DNA from: Actinophytocola xinjiangensis
GTDB lineage: Bacteria > Actinomycetota > Actinomycetes > Mycobacteriales > Pseudonocardiaceae
NCBI RefSeq assembly: GCF_001921215.1
Contig: NZ_MSIF01000017.1
Span: 1-64,000 of the forward strand
DNA length: 64,000 nt
Reading direction: 5' to 3'
Below are positions 13,755-62,049 of this stretch, piece after piece (within the stretch, counting starts at the first letter, position 1; each line of letters opens with the position of its first letter). The notes beneath the pieces were generated by a model, which did not search any database, had not been told where the DNA came from, and worked only from the letters and a program-made list of their open reading frames with translations. The position numbers and the translations under genes are program-made.

Positions 13755-14576
13755 GTGGCGCAGCGTGGCCAGTCCGACGCAGCCGGTAGATCCCGCCGCG
13801 CGCCCGCCGAGAACGCGGCCGAGATCACCACACCGATGCCCGCCATCGGCGGCAACGGCCTGCGTGACCGGGCCAGGGCGATCCCCGAGGCCGCCGTCGC
13901 CCGCCTGGCCGTGTACCTGCGGGTGCTGTCCGGGATGCGCGAGCAGGGCGTCGGTTCGGTGTCCAGCGAGGAACTGTCGGTGGCGGCCGGCGTCAACTCG
14001 GCGAAGCTGCGCAAGGACCTGTCCTACATCGGCTCGTACGGCACCCGGGGCGTTGGCTACGAGGTCGAGGTGCTCGTCGACCAGATCGAACGTGTGCTCG
14101 GCCTCACGCGCGAGCAAAGCGTCGCTGTAGTCGGCATCGGTAACCTCGGACACGCACTCGCCAACTACGGCGGATTTCCAGGCAGAGGCTTCCCGGTGAC
14201 CGCACTGTTCGACGTCGACCCCGACCTGATGGGTGTGCCCGTCGGGGGTATTCCGGTCGCCCACATCGACGACATCCCGTCCGTGTGTGCCGCCCGCGAG
14301 GTCACCATCGGCGTGATCGCCACCCCGCCGCCGGCCGCCCAGGCCGTGTGCGACCGGCTGGTCGAGGCCGGTGTCGAGTGCATCCTGAACTTCGCGCCCG
14401 TCGTGCTCCAGGTCCCGGAGACGGTCGAGGTGCGCAAGGTCGACCTCGCGGTCGAGTTGCAGATCCTGTCCTTCCACGTCGCCCGCCGGGCCGACCACGC
14501 CCCGGCCGAGGACGCGACGCCGGCCCAGCGGGTCAACGGGGTGGCCAACCCCAACGGCGTGGCGGTGCGTCGGTGA
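13755..14576 (+). CDS. rex: Redox-sensing transcriptional repressor Rex
   Basis: A 273-residue Rex protein that senses the NADH/NAD+ ratio. The winged helix lies at about residues 47-95, with IPEAAVARLAVYLRVL and the recognition segment NSAKLRKDLSYIGSYGTRGVGY. A Rossmann domain follows with VGIGNLGHALANY at 126-138, FDVDPDLMG and the late LNFAPVVLQVP, as in other Rex proteins. The C-terminal 25 residues are not conserved. The gene heads an operon with hemA, hemC, hemD and hemB, the classical actinobacterial arrangement linking respiration state to haem synthesis. An operator lies in its promoter, so autoregulation is expected. A repeated mini-cistron element follows the stop codon. Confidence 0.95.
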   Translation: MAQRGQSDAAGRSRRAPAENAAEITTPMPAIGGNGLRDRARAIPEAAVARLAVYLRVLSGMREQGVGSVSSEELSVAAGVNSAKLRKDLSYIGSYGTRGVGYEVEVLVDQIERVLGLTREQSVAVVGIGNLGHALANYGGFPGRGFPVTALFDVDPDLMGVPVGGIPVAHIDDIPSVCAAREVTIGVIATPPPAAQAVCDRLVEAGVECILNFAPVVLQVPETVEVRKVDLAVELQILSFHVARRADHAPAEDATPAQRVNGVANPNGVAVRR

Positions 14577-14578
14577 TC

Positions 14579-14668
14579 GAGGGGGCGTCGTGAGCGAGCG
14601 TGCGAGCGAACCAATGTCACAGGGCGACCGCGAGCGGCGCGACCGAGCCTGCGAGGGGGCGTCGTGAG
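14579..14668 (+). repeat. Translational-coupling repeat element, copy A
   Basis: A 74-bp module bounded by GTGA at both ends (14590-14593 and 14664-14667). The 16-bp GAGGGGGCGTCGTGAG is found at both borders (14579-14594 and 14653-14668). It is about 90% identical by hand alignment to the paaB-paaC copy. Confidence 0.85.
14590..14667 (+). CDS. 25-codon mini-cistron within repeated element, copy A (rex-hemA)
   Basis: Between rex and hemA lies a 25-residue reading frame starting with GTG and reading through [12 protein letters not shown] to a TGA stop that overlaps the hemA GTG start (GTGA). Its start is preceded by GAGGGGG, and the same GAGGGGGCGTCGTGAG recurs at its 3' end as the hemA Shine-Dalgarno and start. 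A second copy lies between paaB and paaC (45748-45825) with about seven base changes in 74, no indels, and the frame kept open. Whether the peptide is made or only translation through it matters is unknown. Protein function: none assignable. Confidence 0.5.
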
Positions 14669-15989
14669 TCTTCTGGCGGTTGGGCTGTCTCATCGGTCCG
14701 CTGACCTGCGGGTGCTGGAGCGTGCGACGGTGCCGGCCGGTGAGGTCGGCAAGGTCCTCGACGAGCTGCTGCGCTGCGAGAACGTCGTCGAGGCGACGAT
14801 GGTGACCACCTGCAACCGGGTCGAGGTCTACGCGGTCGTCCAGGCCTTCCACGGTGGGCTCGCCGACATCGTCGGGGTCCTGGGCCGGCACTCCGGGCTC
14901 GACGCCGCCGAACTCTACGAGCACCTCTACGTCCACTACGCGGCCGCCGCCGTCGAGCACCTGTTCACCGTCGTCGCCGGGCTGGACTCGATGGTCGTCG
15001 GCGAGTCGCAGATCCTCGGCCAGGTCCGCAACGCCTACGGCACGGCCCGCGAGGCCGGCACCGTCGGCCGCACGCTGCACGAGCTGGTGCAGCGGGCGCT
15101 GCGGGTCGGCAAGCGGGTGCACTCCGAGACCGGTCTGGACCGGGCCGGCGGCTCGGTGGTGTCCGAGGCGCTGGCCGACGCCGACCGGCTGCTCGACGGG
15201 CTCGCGGGGCGCCGCGCGCTGATCGTCGGCGCCGGGTCGATGGGCGGGCTGGCCGCCGCGGCGCTGCGCCGCGAGGGCATCGGCGAGATCGTCGTCGCCA
15301 ACCGGACCGAGAGCGCCGGGGCGCGGCTGGCCGAGTTGCAACGCGAGCACGGCGTGCCGGCCACGGCCGTCGGTCTCGGTGATCTGGCCGCCCAGCTGGC
15401 CGCCGCCGACGTCGTGGTCTCCTGCACCGGCGCGTCCGGCTCGGTGATCGACGCCGGCACCGCCGAGGTGGCGCTCGCCGGCCGTGACCGCGCGCTGGTG
15501 ATCTGCGACCTGGGTCTGCCCCGCGACGTGGACGCCCAGATCGCCGATCTCGACCACGTCACCATCGTCGACCTGGAGAGCCTGCAGCGCCGGCTGGCCA
15601 CCGCGCCCAGCGGCCTGGACACCCAGCGGGCCAGCGCGATCGTCGCCGAGGAGGTGCGCGGCTACTTCGCCACCCAGCGCTCGGCCGAGGTCACTCCCAC
15701 GGTCACCGCGTTGCGCCGCCGCGCCGCCGAGGTGGTGGACGCCGAGCTGCTGCGGTTGGACTCGCGGCTGCCCGAGCTGGACGCGGGGGTGCGCGGCGAG
15801 GTCGCGCAGACCGTGCGCCGGGTCGTGGACAAGCTGCTGCACACGCCGACCGTGCGGGTCAAGGAGCTGGCCTCGGCTCCCGGCGGCGCCGAGTACGCCG
15901 AGGCGCTGCGCGAGCTGTTCGGGCTCGACCCGACCGCACCGGTGGCGATCGCCAAGGGTGCCGTGAAGACGGATGGTGAACGCCGGTGA
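14664..15989 (+). CDS. hemA: Glutamyl-tRNA reductase
   Basis: First committed enzyme of C5-pathway tetrapyrrole synthesis: reduces glutamyl-tRNA(Glu) to glutamate-1-semialdehyde with NADPH. The 441-residue length is typical. [10 protein letters not shown] opens the catalytic domain; the nucleophile is Cys50 in [21 protein letters not shown] lies near 112; the NADPH site is [13 protein letters not shown] near residue 190; a C-terminal helical dimerisation domain follows. The GTG start overlaps the stop of the upstream mini-cistron. It ends in a GTGA overlap with hemC. Because it depends on re-initiation after the mini-cistron and on Rex, its output is probably tuned at both translation and transcription (inference). 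Confidence 0.95.
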
Positions 15990-28521: not shown

Positions 28522-30033
28522 GTGAGTGGGCGCGAGCACGAGCCGGACACGGCTGGAGCCGGCCAGGATTTCTCCTGGCTGCCCTCCGGCCAGCAGCGGC
28601 CACAGACCGACGCTGACGCGGCCGAGGACTTCGGCCCCCAGTCCCTGGTGTCGACCGAGGCGGTGCCGCCGGGGGCGCACCCCCAGCCGCACTACACCGA
28701 ACCGAACGCGTCCGGCCCGCACCAGTACGTCGACCCGGCCACGGTGAGCAACCACCCGGTCGTCGACCCGTACCCGCAGCAGCCGCCCGCCGAAGGGGCG
28801 GTGACCTCCGGGACGGCAGGGACCTCCGGCCCGCACCCGCCCGTCGACCAGCAGTACGCCAACCCCAACACCTCGGGTCCGCACCAGTACGTCGAGGCGA
28901 CCCCGTCGGGGCCCCAGCAGTACGCCAACCCGAACACGTCGGGTCCGCACCAGTACGTCGAGGCGACGCCGTCCGGACCCCAGCAGTACGCCAACCCGAA
29001 CACCTCCGGCCCGCACGCCACGCCGCCCGGCGGCTACCCCCAGGGCGGCTTCCCGCCCGGCTACCCGGCCCAGGCCCAGCAGCAACAGCAGCCGCCCCGG
29101 CGGGCCGACGAGCTGTCCTCGGCCAAGCTCATCAAGCAGGCCAAGCGGCGCCCGCAGTCCGGCTGGCGCAAGGCCGTCTACGTGGCGACCGGTCATCTGG
29201 TCAACGTCGGCGAGAGCCCGTCGGACGTGCACCGGCGCGAGTTGATAGCGCGGGTCAACCAGCCGCTGCGCGGCTGCTACAAGATCGCGATGCTCAGTCT
29301 CAAGGGCGGCGTCGGCAAGACCACCACCACGACCACGCTCGGTTCGACGTTCGCGTCGCTGCGTGGCGACCGGGTGATCGCCGTGGACGCCAACCCCGAC
29401 CGGGGCACGTTGAGCCAGAAGATCCCGCTGGAGACCACGGCCACCGTGCGTCACCTGCTGCGCGACGCCGACCGGATCCACCGCTACAGCGACATCCGCG
29501 CCTACACCTCGCAGGGCCCCAGCCGCCTGGAGGTGCTGGCCAGCGAGCAGGACCCGGCGGTCTCCGAGGCGTTCAGCGAGGACGACTACCGGCGCACGGT
29601 CGCGCTGCTGGAGCACTTCTACAACATCGTGCTCACCGACTGCGGCACCGGCCTGATGCACTCGGCGATGAAGGGTGTCCTGGACATCGCCGACGCGCTG
29701 GTCATCGTGTCCTCCGGTTCGGTCGACGGCGCCCGCAGCGCGTCGGCGACGCTGGACTGGCTGGACGTGCACGGCTACCGCGACCTGGTCTCCCGCTCGG
29801 TCGCCGTGATCAACTCGGTGCGGCCGAGGGCCGGGTCGGTGGACCTGGACAAGCTGGGCCAGCACTTCGGTTCACGCTGCCGCGCGGTGTGCCGGATCCC
29901 GTTCGACCCGCACCTGGAGGAGGGTGCGGAGATCGAGCTCGACCGGCTGGGCGCGCCGACCAGGCTCGCGCTGCTGGACCTGGCCGCGACCGTGGCCGAC
30001 GGGTTCCCCAGCGAGTTCTACTACATGCGCTGA
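28522..30033 (+). CDS. MinD/ParA-family ATPase with repeat-rich N-terminus (EspI-like architecture)
   Basis: About 503 residues. The first 230 are low-complexity and include a tandem repeat QQYANPNTSGPHQYVEATPSGP. The C-terminal 270 residues are a SIMIBI ATPase: the deviant Walker A SLKGGVGKTTTTTTLGS near residue 262, VIAVDANPDRGTL near 287, and IVLTDCGTGLMHSAM near 368 in place of the classic DxxG. This architecture matches Rv0530 and the ESX-1 protein EspI (Rv3876) of M. tuberculosis (recalled). No ESX genes are in view, so a secretion link is unproven. GTG 28522 has AGGGAGGAA seven bases upstream. The TGA stop is one arm of a 20-bp palindrome shared with the convergent gene. Confidence 0.85.
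   Translation: MSGREHEPDTAGAGQDFSWLPSGQQRPQTDADAAEDFGPQSLVSTEAVPPGAHPQPHYTEPNASGPHQYVDPATVSNHPVVDPYPQQPPAEGAVTSGTAGTSGPHPPVDQQYANPNTSGPHQYVEATPSGPQQYANPNTSGPHQYVEATPSGPQQYANPNTSGPHATPPGGYPQGGFPPGYPAQAQQQQQPPRRADELSSAKLIKQAKRRPQSGWRKAVYVATGHLVNVGESPSDVHRRELIARVNQPLRGCYKIAMLSLKGGVGKTTTTTTLGSTFASLRGDRVIAVDANPDRGTLSQKIPLETTATVRHLLRDADRIHRYSDIRAYTSQGPSRLEVLASEQDPAVSEAFSEDDYRRTVALLEHFYNIVLTDCGTGLMHSAMKGVLDIADALVIVSSGSVDGARSASATLDWLDVHGYRDLVSRSVAVINSVRPRAGSVDLDKLGQHFGSRCRAVCRIPFDPHLEEGAEIELDRLGAPTRLALLDLAATVADGFPSEFYYMR
28849..29019 (+). repeat. 66-bp in-frame tandem repeat, about 2.6 copies
   Basis: Units at 28849-28914 and 28915-28980 and a partial unit at 28981-29019 encode a 22-residue motif rich in Pro, Gln, Tyr and Thr-Ser-Gly-Pro. 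DNA copies differ mainly at third positions, so the coding sequence is being kept. It is inside the MinD-like gene. Confidence 0.9.
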
Positions 30034-44531: not shown

Positions 44532-45476
44532 GTGGACGCTGAACTGGAGCGCGAGTTCGACCGCGTCGTCGACGCGGAGCAGCGCATCGAGCCGAGGGAC
44601 TGGATGCCCGACGGCTACCGCAAGACGCTCATCCGTCAGATCGCCCAGCACGCGCACTCCGAGATCATCGGCATGCAGCCCGAGGCGAACTGGATCAGCC
44701 GCGCGCCCTCGCTGCGGCGCAAGGCGATCCTGCTGGCGAAGGTGCAGGACGAGGCCGGCCACGGCCTGTACCTGTACGCGGCGACCGAGACCCTCGGCGC
44801 CGACCGCGAGGACCTCACCACCAAGCTCATCGAGGGCCGGCAGAAGTACTCCTCGATCTTCAACTACCCCACGCTGAACTTCGCCGACGTCGGCGTGATC
44901 GGCTGGCTGGTCGACGGCGCGGCCATCGTCAACCAGGTCCCGCTGTGCCGGACCTCCTACGGGCCGTACGCGCGGGCGATGATCCGCATCTGCAAGGAGG
45001 AGTCCTTCCACCAGCGGCAGGGCTTCGAGCTGCTGATGACCATGATGCGCGGCACCGACGCGCAGCGGCGGATGGTCCAGGACTCGGTCGACCGCTGGTG
45101 GTGGCCGTCGCTGATGATGTTCGGCCCGCCGGATGAGAAGTCCGCCAACACCGAGCAGTCGATGGCCTGGCGGATCAAGCGGCACACCAACGACGAGCTG
45201 CGGCAGAAGTTCGTCGACATGACCGTGCCGCAGGCGCGGGCGCTGGGCGTGACGCTGCCCGACCCGGACCTGCGGTGGAACGACGACCGAGGCCACCACG
45301 ACTTCGGCGAGCTGGACTGGGAGGAGTTCTGGCAGGTCGTCGGGGGTGACGGCCCGTGCAACAGGCAGCGGGTCGCCCACCGCCGCGCGGCGCACGAGAA
45401 CGGGGCGTGGGTACGGGACGCGGCGGCCGCCTACGCGGCCCGGCGCGCGGGATCGGACGCGGAGGAGGTCGCATGA
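44532..45476 (+). CDS. paaA: 1,2-phenylacetyl-CoA epoxidase, catalytic subunit PaaA
   Basis: Di-iron oxygenase subunit that epoxidises the ring of phenylacetyl-CoA in aerobic phenylacetate degradation. 314 residues. Iron-ligand motifs are [12 protein letters not shown] (Glu and His at about residues 74-77) and [14 protein letters not shown] (about 155-166). [20 protein letters not shown] precedes the first. The GTG start is six bases after a -10-like TAACAT. ATGA overlap with paaB. All five epoxidase genes are present; ring-opening and beta-oxidation genes (paaZ, paaG, paaH) and paaK are not in the window. Confidence 0.95.
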
Positions 45477-45751
45477 GCTGGCCGCTCTACGAGGTGTTCG
45501 TGCGGGGCAAGCGCGGGCTCAACCACGTCCACGTCGGTTCGCTGCACGCGCCGGACGACGAGATGGCGCTGCGCAACGCCCGCGACCTGTACACCCGGCG
45601 CAACGAGGGCGTGAGCATCTGGGTCGTGCGCGCCTCGGCGATCACCGCGTCCTCCCCGGACGAGAAGGACCCGTTCTTCGCCCCGGCCGGCGACAAGGTC
45701 TACCGCCATCCCACGTTCTACTCGATCCCGGAGGACGTGCCGCACCTGTGA
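45473..45751 (+). CDS. paaB: 1,2-phenylacetyl-CoA epoxidase subunit PaaB
   Basis: A 92-residue small structural subunit of the epoxidase complex: [50 protein letters not shown] is typical PaaB. ATG 45473 overlaps the paaA stop and has GGAGGAGG upstream. Its own stop lies in CTGTGA, where the GTG of the following mini-cistron begins, so translation can pass straight into it. Confidence 0.95.
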
Positions 45752-45825
45752 ACGAGCCTGCGAGTGAACCGATGTCACAGGGCGACCGCGAGCGGCGGCA
45801 CCGAGCCCGCGAGGGGGCGTCGTGA
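45748..45825 (+). CDS. 25-codon mini-cistron within repeated element, copy B (paaB-paaC)
   Basis: GTG 45748 overlaps the paaB stop (GTGA), and the 25-codon frame ends in TGA overlapping the paaC start (GTGA at 45822-45825). It shares [12 protein letters not shown] with the copy at 14590-14667; five of 25 residues differ. A GAGGGGG Shine-Dalgarno at its 3' end serves paaC. It is thus inserted between two genes that would otherwise overlap directly. No peptide function can be assigned. Confidence 0.5.
   Translation: MNEPASEPMSQGDRERRHRAREGAS
45748..45825 (+). repeat. Translational-coupling repeat element, copy B
   Basis: Same 74-bp module as at 14590, with about seven substitutions and no indels. 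The flanks suggest that it entered at a pre-existing GTGA stop/start overlap and duplicated those four bases. Confidence 0.85.
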
Positions 45826-46718
45826 GTTTCGACAACGCGTATGACGCGATCACCGAGGATTCCGGGGACGACCGGCAGTGGGCGTTCGGCACCGGGTTCG
45901 ACGATCCGCTGTCCGGTGTGGACCGTGCGGTGCCCGGCGAGGTGTCCACCTCGGACCTGTCGGTGTACTGCCTGATGCTGGCCGACGACGCGCTGATCCT
46001 GTCCCAGCGGCTGACCGAGTGGTGCTCGCGCGCCCCCGAGTTGGAGGAGGACGTCGCCCTGGCGAACATCGCCCTGGACCTGCTAGGCCAGGCGCGGCTG
46101 CTGCTGGCCCGCGCCGGCGAGGTCGAGGGCGCCGGGCGGGACGAGGACGCCCTGGCCTACCTGCGCGACGAGCACGAGTTCCGCAATGTGCGGCTGGTCG
46201 AGATCGACTGTGGGCCGGGCCCGGGCGGCGACTTCGCGACCACGATCGCCCGGCTGCTGGTGTTCTCCACGTGGCGGCTGGCGGTGCTGGGCCAGCTCGC
46301 CCACTCCGGTGACCCGGTGCTGGCGGCGGTCGCCGCCAAGGGTGTCAAGGAGCTGGCCTACCACCGCGACCACGCCGCCCAGTGGACGCTGCGCCTGGCC
46401 GGGGGCACCGACTTCTCGCGCGAGCGGATGGTCGCCGGGCTGGCGACGGTGTGGCCGTTGCACGACGAGCTGTTCACCCCGCACCCGGTCGAGCTGGCGT
46501 TGCCGGCGGTGGCGGTCGATCCGTCGACGGTGCGCCCGGAGGTCGACGAGGTCCTCGACACGGTGCTGGCCGAGGCGGACCTGTCCCGGCCGCGGGTGTC
46601 GCCGTTGGCGATGGTCGGCGGGCGGGCGGGGCGCGACGGCGTGCACACCGAGGCCCTGGGCTACCTGCTGGCGCCGATGCAGCACCTGGCCCGCGCGCTG
46701 CCGGGAGCCCGGTGGTGA
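45822..46718 (+). CDS. paaC: 1,2-phenylacetyl-CoA epoxidase subunit PaaC
   Basis: A 298-residue non-catalytic helical partner of PaaA, with ferritin-like fold. STSDLSVYCLMLADDALILSQRLTEWCSRAPELEEDVALANIALDLLGQARLLL near residue 42, a LRDEHEFRNVRLVEI segment near 113 and KGVKELAYHRDHAAQWTLRLAGGTDFS near 170 fit PaaC. The first 40 residues are a poorly conserved extension. Start overlaps the mini-cistron stop; the stop overlaps the paaD start. Confidence 0.95.
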   Translation: MSFDNAYDAITEDSGDDRQWAFGTGFDDPLSGVDRAVPGEVSTSDLSVYCLMLADDALILSQRLTEWCSRAPELEEDVALANIALDLLGQARLLLARAGEVEGAGRDEDALAYLRDEHEFRNVRLVEIDCGPGPGGDFATTIARLLVFSTWRLAVLGQLAHSGDPVLAAVAAKGVKELAYHRDHAAQWTLRLAGGTDFSRERMVAGLATVWPLHDELFTPHPVELALPAVAVDPSTVRPEVDEVLDTVLAEADLSRPRVSPLAMVGGRAGRDGVHTEALGYLLAPMQHLARALPGARW

Positions 46719-60831: not shown

Positions 60832-62049
60832 ATGAGCTCTCCGCAGCCGCCGAACCAGCCATGGCAGGGCGGCCCGCCGCCGCAGCAGCACGGGGAGGGT
60901 GAGCAGCCGGACAACCCGGCGCTGGCCAGCCCCGGTCCGACGCAGGTCGTCCAGCCGGGCGGGCAGCGTGGCGCCGACGGAGTGGAGCGCACCCAGGCGA
61001 TCCAGCCCGGTCAGCAGCCGCCGCCCGTCGGTCAGGACTCCGGTGCCACCCAGGTCGTGCCGCCGGGCCAGTTCGCCCAGCAGGGCCCGGACGCCGGCGC
61101 CACGCAGATGGTCCCGCCCGGGTCGATGCCTCCCCAGCAGCCGCCCTACGCCCCGCCGCCCGGCGCCGACGCCTCGCCTCCCGGCGGGTTCCCCGGCCAG
61201 CCCGGTGGGTTCGGCCAGCCCCCGGCCCAGCAGGGCTACGGTCAGCCGCCGGCGCCTCCCGGGTACGGCCAGCCGCCGATGCAGCAGGGCTACGGTCAGC
61301 CGCCGGCCCCTCCCGGGTACGGCCAGCAGCCTCCTGGTGGGTTCGCCCAGCAGCCGGGCCTTGGCGCCGGCCCGAACTTCGGTGGCCCCGGCCAGAACCT
61401 GCAGATGATCTCGTGGGGCCTGGCGGGCGTCGCGGCGCTCATGGGTCTGCTCGTCGCCATCTTCCTGCTGGTCGACATGGGCGACATCGGCGACTACTCC
61501 GATGGCTACGACTCGGTCCCCGAGGCCATGCGGGACGAGATGGGCCTGCCTGCGCCGGGGATGGTCTGGCTCTGCTCGATCGCCATCCTGCTCGGTGCGC
61601 TGGCCGCCATCGGCGGTGGTGTCCTGATCTACCTGAAGCACAAGATGGCGGCGCTCGCGCTTGTGGTCGGCGGCGGGCTGATGCTGGTGTTCGGGATCAT
61701 TGAGATGATCATGTTCGGCAGCATCGACACGGGGGGTATCGGCGCTCCCAGCGCGCCGGACAGCGCGGTGTGGGGTCTGATCGGCGGCATCATCGTCGGC
61801 GGGGTCGGTGCGCTCGGCTACTTCCCGCAGACCAAGAAGTTCCTCGGTGGAGACTCGGTGTTCGGCCCGGGCGGCCCCGGTGGCCCCGGCGGTTTCGGTC
61901 AGCCCCCGGGCTTCGGCCAGCCCCCGCAGCAGGGCTTCGGCCAGCCGCAGCAGGGTTTCGGTCAGCCGCCGCAACAGGGCTTCGGTGCCCCGCCGCAGCA
62001 GGGCTACGGCCAGCCGCCCCAGCAGGGTGGCCCGCCGCCCCAGTGGTGA
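60832..62049 (+). CDS. Pro/Gln/Gly-rich four-helix membrane protein (Pra/34-kDa antigen-like)
   Basis: A 405-residue protein. The N-terminal 185 residues and the C-terminal 60 are low complexity, with repeats such as QGYGQPPAPPGYGQPP and GFGQPPQQ; in between lie four helices (near 193-212, 243-263, 270-291, 306-325). The position between cbs and metB matches Rv1078 (pra, proline-rich antigen homologue, recalled). AAGGGG precedes the ATG. Presumed membrane or cell-wall protein; function unknown. A strong terminator follows. Confidence 0.82.
   Translation: MSSPQPPNQPWQGGPPPQQHGEGEQPDNPALASPGPTQVVQPGGQRGADGVERTQAIQPGQQPPPVGQDSGATQVVPPGQFAQQGPDAGATQMVPPGSMPPQQPPYAPPPGADASPPGGFPGQPGGFGQPPAQQGYGQPPAPPGYGQPPMQQGYGQPPAPPGYGQQPPGGFAQQPGLGAGPNFGGPGQNLQMISWGLAGVAALMGLLVAIFLLVDMGDIGDYSDGYDSVPEAMRDEMGLPAPGMVWLCSIAILLGALAAIGGGVLIYLKHKMAALALVVGGGLMLVFGIIEMIMFGSIDTGGIGAPSAPDSAVWGLIGGIIVGGVGALGYFPQTKKFLGGDSVFGPGGPGGPGGFGQPPGFGQPPQQGFGQPQQGFGQPPQQGFGAPPQQGYGQPPQQGGPPPQW

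Follow-up and report, generated by a model that had tools for sequence, protein, structure and literature searches.

A short mobile repeat with a mini-ORF at RTGA start codons in Actinophytocola and other actinomycetes

The window analyzed here (the whole stretch of 64,000 nucleotides from Actinophytocola xinjiangensis contig NZ_MSIF01000017.1) contains two copies of a short repeat, one between a rex-like gene and hemA and the other between paaB and paaC (Table 1). The name rex is our assumption from the Pfam domains PF06971 and PF02629. A previous sequence-only reading had located both copies correctly. It had also counted about seven substitutions and no indels between them, and this was confirmed: the ungapped alignment covers 80 nt at 91% identity, with 7 substitutions (element positions 5, 11, 18, 24, 51, 52, and 61 of 78) and 0 indels. 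In the left-hairpin model, positions 5 and 18 face each other as a pair, which is G-C in copy 1 and A-T in copy 2. The expected number of chance occurrences of the element's 26-nt core in the window was 0 (100 shuffles).

As had been described, both copies consist of GTG, 24 further codons, and a TGA that overlaps the GTG of hemA or paaC; the overlap of the mini-ORF with its neighbours is 4 nt in both copies. The unbroken chain of paaB, mini-ORF, and paaC was also verified, with the paaB stop (45749-45751) inside the left GTGA. At the other junction the rex stop lies at 14574-14576, and a mini-ORF of six codons bridges the distance to copy 1, so the chain of rex, copy 1, and hemA is unbroken as well. 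The last 16 bases of this small ORF are identical to the 3' tail of the element, and it is probably the remnant of an earlier insertion. Two other repeats were seen in the window: a tandem repeat with a period of 33 nt at 28686-29012, which probably codes for a repetitive protein segment, and, at 61188-62042, probably coding GC-rich repeats whose periods range from 21 to 27 nt.

Table 1. Element copies, predicted hairpins, and neighbouring genes in the window
Feature	Positions	Strand	Basis
rex-like gene, upstream of copy 1	13755..14576	+	Pfam PF06971, PF02629
Mini-ORF, 6 sense codons, from rex stop to copy 1	14573..14593	+	sequence
Element copy 1, mini-ORF GTG..TGA, 25 sense codons, rex/hemA junction	14590..14667	+	sequence
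Left terminal hairpin of copy 1 (predicted): RTGA (14590-14593) against GAAC (14608-14611), R1=G, Y22=C	14590..14611	+	model, covariation; not stable by standard folding energies
Right hairpin of copy 1 (14636-14663, model), then right RTGA (14664-14667), the hemA start codon plus A	14636..14667	+	covariation
GAGGGGG, Shine-Dalgarno-like, within 3' arm of the right hairpin of copy 1	14653..14659	+	sequence
hemA, glutamyl-tRNA reductase, downstream of copy 1	14664..15989	+	Pfam PF05201, PF00745
paaB, upstream of copy 2, stop overlaps left GTGA	45473..45751	+	Pfam PF06243
Element copy 2, mini-ORF GTG..TGA, paaB/paaC junction	45748..45825	+	sequence
Left terminal hairpin of copy 2 (model)	45748..45769	+	sequence, covariation
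Right hairpin of copy 2 (45794-45821, model) and right RTGA (45822-45825), the paaC start codon plus A	45794..45825	+	covariation
GAGGGGG, Shine-Dalgarno-like, copy 2	45811..45817	+	sequence
paaC, downstream of copy 2; the Pfam model spans PaaA and PaaC	45822..46718	+	Pfam PF05138

The genome searches that the sequence-only reading had proposed found further copies in the same genome and in related ones. BLAST at E 0.01 gave 12 strong copies and three weaker matches in the 9.5-Mb A. xinjiangensis genome; at E 1e-4 there were 12 in this genome, and five congeners had 26, 15, 4, 77, and 1. With a profile made from ten of the own copies, 145 matches in 98 clusters were obtained within the loci fetched from the six Actinophytocola genomes. 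These loci were fetched around BLAST matches, so that weaker copies are missed, and one BLAST match of the own genome (L014) was absent from the profile matches. Single copies made up 71 of the 98 clusters, and the others were arrays of two to six.

There were two main unit classes in the genus, of 74 bp and 77 bp. In the alignment, the 77-bp class is longer by three bases, each at its own position, which keep the frame and alter the first third of the peptide. Tandem arrays with a constant unit occurred in various genomes, with units of 74, 75, 65, 80, and 107 bp. The 75-bp unit (79 nt with both RTGA) was seen at L190 and other loci of genome G106, where the 4-nt overlap frame of the other classes is not kept. 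At loci L064 and L072 of another genome, G004, subrepeats from the left part of the element stood in tandem, with a length of 30 nt, a multiple of three. Three G004 contigs (C209, C197, and C128) start or end in or at element copies; assemblies probably break at these repeats, and copy numbers may thus be underestimated.

At wider ranks, a DNA query matched 12 of the 150 genomes of the family Pseudonocardiaceae at E 1e-7. With a covariance model, matches were found in 20 of 296 genomes of the class (11 of 115 genera), in 18 of 40 genomes of one actinomycete genus, probably Mycobacterium, at E 0.05, and in six of 296 genomes of the phylum, two of these six being marked as same phylum only. Searches over more than 40 genomes ran under stricter filters, so these counts are lower bounds. 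A scan of named genomes, done with a pattern that left out the first base of the left RTGA, returned at least 120 stretches, of which 80 loci were read, including one of G004. Among the matches listed, relatives occurred in at least 24 actinomycete genera and three higher taxa; the genera included Micromonospora, Microbispora, Nocardioides, Kutzneria, Kibdelosporangium, Pseudonocardia, Rhodococcus, and Actinoplanes. A 76-bp query had no match among plasmid or phage records, and no Rfam covariance model matched at E 0.1 when seven loci were given.

The sequence-only reading had argued that the reading frame is preserved and that each copy supplies a ribosome-site motif to the downstream gene, and both points held among 107 near-full copies. 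In 101 of them the frame was open all the way between the left RTG position and the closing TGA; five of the six broken copies had a length not divisible by three and one had an early stop. RTGA stood at the left in 96 of the 107, and the first codon was not RTG in a few. Among the 102 copies with a length divisible by 3, 99% were free of stops, compared with 71% of dinucleotide shuffles. The rare length variants (neither 78 nor 81 nt) were split into six multiples of three and five that are not, so the frame argument rests on the open frames of the main classes. The Shine-Dalgarno-like motif (GGAG, GAGG, or AGGA before the right RTG) was present in 106 of the 107 copies and in 26% of the shuffles. 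A function of the peptide was considered and rejected, since the 74-bp and 77-bp classes encode different peptides in the left third and both are open. Four elements that look truncated at the 3' end (L233, L238, L249, and L304) have a mini-ORF that continues in frame for hundreds of codons, and there the element sequence may have become a new N-terminus.

The insertion sites were judged with a crude codon-usage gene caller trained on the window; one site at a contig edge was skipped. Among the 97 judged sites, the upstream stop coincided exactly with the left TGA in 62; in 18 there was a stop 3 to 157 nt upstream of the left RTGA, and in the remaining 17 no same-strand upstream gene was seen. 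The site had been described before as an existing GTGA stop/start overlap. The pre-existing tetranucleotide stood, but the site is better given as a GTGA or ATGA start codon, with or without an overlapping stop. The right end was intact in 79 sites, and a gene started exactly at the right RTG in 69. At five other sites the frame of the right RTG was the best but weak, and five did not fit: L059, L065, and L077, all of one genome, look antisense, L086 is ambiguous, and one in L046 had another frame. The orientation of insertion was nearly always sense.

By the same crude gene calls, RTGA occurs in the window 27 times at called starts, 74 times in intergenic sequence, and 595 times inside genes. 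Compared with the background of 27 start-codon to 74 intergenic RTGA, the proportion of 69 in 79 had p=2e-29. Start codons are strongly preferred, since RTGA in the window is far more often elsewhere than at starts. This preference may result from targeting or from survival.

Relatives without the element show what such a site looks like when empty. In some related genera, a bare ATGA or GTGA was found at rex-hemA or paaB-paaC (for example L125, L127, L131, L155, and L160), and in others the junction differs. These bare sites agree with the earlier proposal that the element inserts in an existing RTGA and leaves RTGA on both sides. Within the genus, rex-hemA contained the element in G000, G002, and G004 (two divergent copies in G004) and was empty in G001, G003, and G005. 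Of the four genomes judged at paaB-paaC, G000, G001, and G002 had the element and G003 was empty. At one site, a full element in G001 corresponds to an 18-nt in-frame stretch in G003, which looks like an element remnant. Copies at different sites of one genome were as close as 1 mismatch in 70. The bare RTGA, the differences in presence between species, and the near-identical copies at different sites point to a mobile element.

We found that the first base of the left RTGA (R) is matched to an internal base of the element (Y). In the genus, 89 of the 98 clusters were readable and gave G-C 52, A-T 27, G-T 3, and A-C 7, that is, a match (A-T or G-C) in 79 of 89 sites (p=3e-13); within single genomes, p was 9e-5 and 3e-4. 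The scan of named actinomycetes, which allowed C or T at Y, gave the same picture among the matches listed: all 84 had A or G as R, with A-T 44, G-C 35, G-T 4, and A-C 1, and seven taxon labels showed both A-T and G-C. Matches of the model R1 were not counted as R-Y evidence, because the model includes that pair. In 69 complete copies, mutual information with R was 0.456 at Y and at most 0.11 at five variable neighbours that were checked. The peptide does not explain the match: in the 74-bp class the switch is between GTG with Pro8 and ATG with Ser8, and in the class with the 77-bp unit Y falls on the third position of codon 8 (AAC 23, AAT 5, and ACT 1; n=29), so that the switch is silent in 28 of 29. 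For the right RTGA, no covariation with the supposed guide base was seen in the genus (C with G 51, C with A 38); in the named set, among the matches listed, 18 of 33 with a detectable stem matched. The covarying ends and the R-Y match had no place in the sequence-only reading.

A hairpin can be drawn at either end, with the RTGA forming part of its base. Distinct copies were analyzed by class (58 of 78 nt and 29 of 81 nt), and in each class the right arm held the top two covarying column pairs, which were nested and mostly Watson-Crick. The coupling of column 1, where the left RTGA begins, with the base 21 or 23 positions on ranked eighth and fourth, and some couplings ranked above it are not base pairs. 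RNAalifold gave other structures, with the left helix absent, when each length class was folded alone; with 47 diverse copies (35 from the genus, picked to be diverse, and 12 of the 15 copies of other genera) and no structure given, it returned the left helix including column 1, plus the right helix. The modelled structure had 85.2% standard pairs compared with 78.3% in shuffles (0 of 500 reached this), 74 double-change cells compared with 31 (0 of 500; slid controls at most 24), and nine pairs with double changes compared with 5.6 (3 of 500). One of the five measures, further pair types, was not above the shuffles (27 compared with 25.1; 83 of 500). G.A pairs were excluded from this structure count, and the left hairpin would rest largely on tandem G.A pairs. 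By standard energies, the left hairpin alone is unstable as DNA and as RNA, and over 40 copies the RNA of whole elements folded no more stably than that of shuffles (mean z +0.23). A stable right hairpin was seen in one case, of the Nocardioides type and with TCAT...ATGA included (z -3.4 as RNA, -2.2 as DNA).

The reading that we prefer, with a probability of about 0.6, is a MIRU-like mobile translation-coupling cassette with an internal guide that pairs with the target as in IS200/IS605. A small non-autonomous mobile repeat, with a unit of 74 bp here, would insert immediately downstream of an RTGA in which RTG serves as a start codon. The left RTG would then start the 25-codon mini-ORF, and the element would bring the Shine-Dalgarno-like motif and a second RTGA, in which TGA would end the mini-ORF and RTG would start the displaced gene. 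A ribosome coming from the upstream gene or leader would translate the mini-ORF and reinitiate at the 4-nt overlap, and the displaced gene would stay expressed. The first base of the left RTGA, which would be native to the site, would pair with the internal guide base (G-C or A-T), so the target would be recognized before insertion, and we infer that the moving form is single-stranded DNA.

The enzyme was looked for in the genomes that carry copies. Y1_Tnp (PF01797) was found in none of the six genus genomes; among 14 other copy-bearing genomes it was absent from nine and present in five, and was not co-distributed with the element. As a control of the search, 5 of 14 control genomes were positive in both searches. 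A Y1 transposase as the resident mobilizer was therefore rejected; with none found in the genus, the enzyme would be different, lost, or outside the model used. The IS91-type Y2_Tnp was likewise found in none of the six genus genomes, and the control genomes had no match either, so this negative carries no weight. A wider form of our reading is tentative, and we hold it at well under an even chance: an actinomycete-wide mobile family, moved by an enzyme beyond those found, whose internal guide would pair with the RTGA of start codons and whose guide-base changes would redirect copies between ATGA and GTGA, the mycobacterial MIRUs being one branch.

The same mobile mini-cistron could show the R-Y match for a different reason, namely a hairpin in the RNA at the start codon of the mini-ORF that is selected after insertion and tunes initiation, with no part in target recognition. 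We consider this unlikely, but it is the most probable of the alternatives. In its favour, the pair involves the initial base of the start codon of the mini-ORF, and the double changes in the helices are what a selected structure would leave. Y can also mutate after insertion, as the shared-site loci with a changed Y and R still G indicate: L246 and L264 (Planomonospora) and L276 and L282 (Kibdelosporangium) apparently represent one insertion per pair, each pair coming from two species, with the same left GTGA and a guide base of T in one and C in the other. The arrays speak against such a structure. There the left R of an inner copy comes from the adjacent unit, and inner copies matched in 17 of 28 cases compared with 81 of 91 first copies (p=0.0014; 84 of 91 with G-T included, p=0.0002; first copies were read by a looser rule than in the 89-site count), although each copy would need the same control. 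The lower match of inner copies is easier to reconcile with a base selected at insertion than with a structure that every unit requires. Folding stability is not in excess, and the unrelated downstream genes make one common regulatory need unlikely.

Somewhat less probable again is that the left RTGA travels with the element, in which case the R-Y pair would be ordinary internal structure and the location at start codons would reflect only the removal of harmful insertions by selection and quicker loss at other places. The comparison with empty relatives gives this some room: at 12 sites with unlike left and right R, the left R was matched by just 19 of 38 empty relatives in a hand count (13 sites were begun, and L084 was dropped because it had only apparent paralogs). 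A few copies also lie outside start codons, such as the three antisense-looking ones in a single genome. However, a travelling RTGA should give inner array copies a matched R, yet they match less; intergenic RTGA in the window is about 2.7 times as frequent as start-codon RTGA, yet the intact sites are mostly starts; and in the closest species pair (G001 and G003) the left R equals that of the empty site in 4 of 4 informative sites, which favours a native left R, with one more site matching neither. An old conserved translation signal that never moved and was kept or lost at these junctions is very improbable. It would explain the sites common to several species (rex-hemA in three genomes of the genus and paaB-paaC in three), but it is already contradicted by the bare RTGA in relatives, the copies 1 mismatch apart at different sites, the tandem arrays, and the range from 1 to 77 matches across species of one genus.

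The preferred reading, a mobile cassette with a guide, joins features of two known kinds of element. MIRUs are the mycobacterial interspersed repetitive units, for which Supply et al. (1997) is cited. A 2025 review describes them as short, apparently mobile repeats at start codons, with an ORF coupled to the next gene at a spacing of -4 nt (PMC12548453), and tandem units of 77 bp and 53 bp are reported (PMC2453075, PMC4213456). The present element resembles them as a short repeat with an ORF and overlaps of about 4 nt at its two ends, in its insertion at start codons that are empty in relatives, and in its tandem arrays of constant unit; as far as these texts go, 77 bp is a unit length in both. 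The MIRUs of the senX3-regX3 region are described there as confined to M. leprae and the M. tuberculosis complex (PMC2453075 / PMC4213456), in contrast to the many actinomycete genera that have this element. A hairpin or guide was not found in the accessible MIRU descriptions, and the two are compared here by description.

In IS608, according to the accessible parts of PMC5934647 and PMC6006769, a tetranucleotide is kept in the left flank and pairs with an internal guide that can be reprogrammed, the final tetranucleotide is paired similarly at the right end, and both guides lie 5' of hairpins. IS200/IS605 (IS608) and REP/TnpA-REP have terminal hairpins, and our element would resemble them if its covarying ends form the modelled hairpins and if the internal base that covaries with the flanking tetranucleotide acts as a guide. 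The left guide of our element, however, would lie 3' of its hairpin and not 5' as in IS608. Unlike IS200/IS605 and REP, it occurs in a genus with no Y1 transposase found, contains a mini-ORF together with a start, a stop, and a ribosome site, lies mostly at start codons, and has RTGA as its target instead of TTAC or GTAG/GTGG. Rickettsia palindromic elements are small mobile palindromic repeats compatible with open reading frames, inserted in frame inside genes, whereas the copies described here appear as separate coupled mini-cistrons. By these comparisons we would call the element MIRU-like without counting it among the proven MIRUs; in its putative target recognition it would work like IS200/IS605 but not belong to that group.

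We recognized no paper on actinomycete relatives of the element or on how such repeats move in a literature search that was short of most subscription journals. MIRU-type repeats underlie the typing of tuberculosis, and the accessible sources held no answer on how they move. In this family, soil actinomycetes provide many insertions and the empty site is defined, and there is a testable one-base prediction, that the guide base decides between ATGA and GTGA. Some odd N-termini and short gaps in the annotation of actinomycetes may have their explanation here. The family also suggests that a parasite can insert at start codons, working operons included, and yet give back the start signal.
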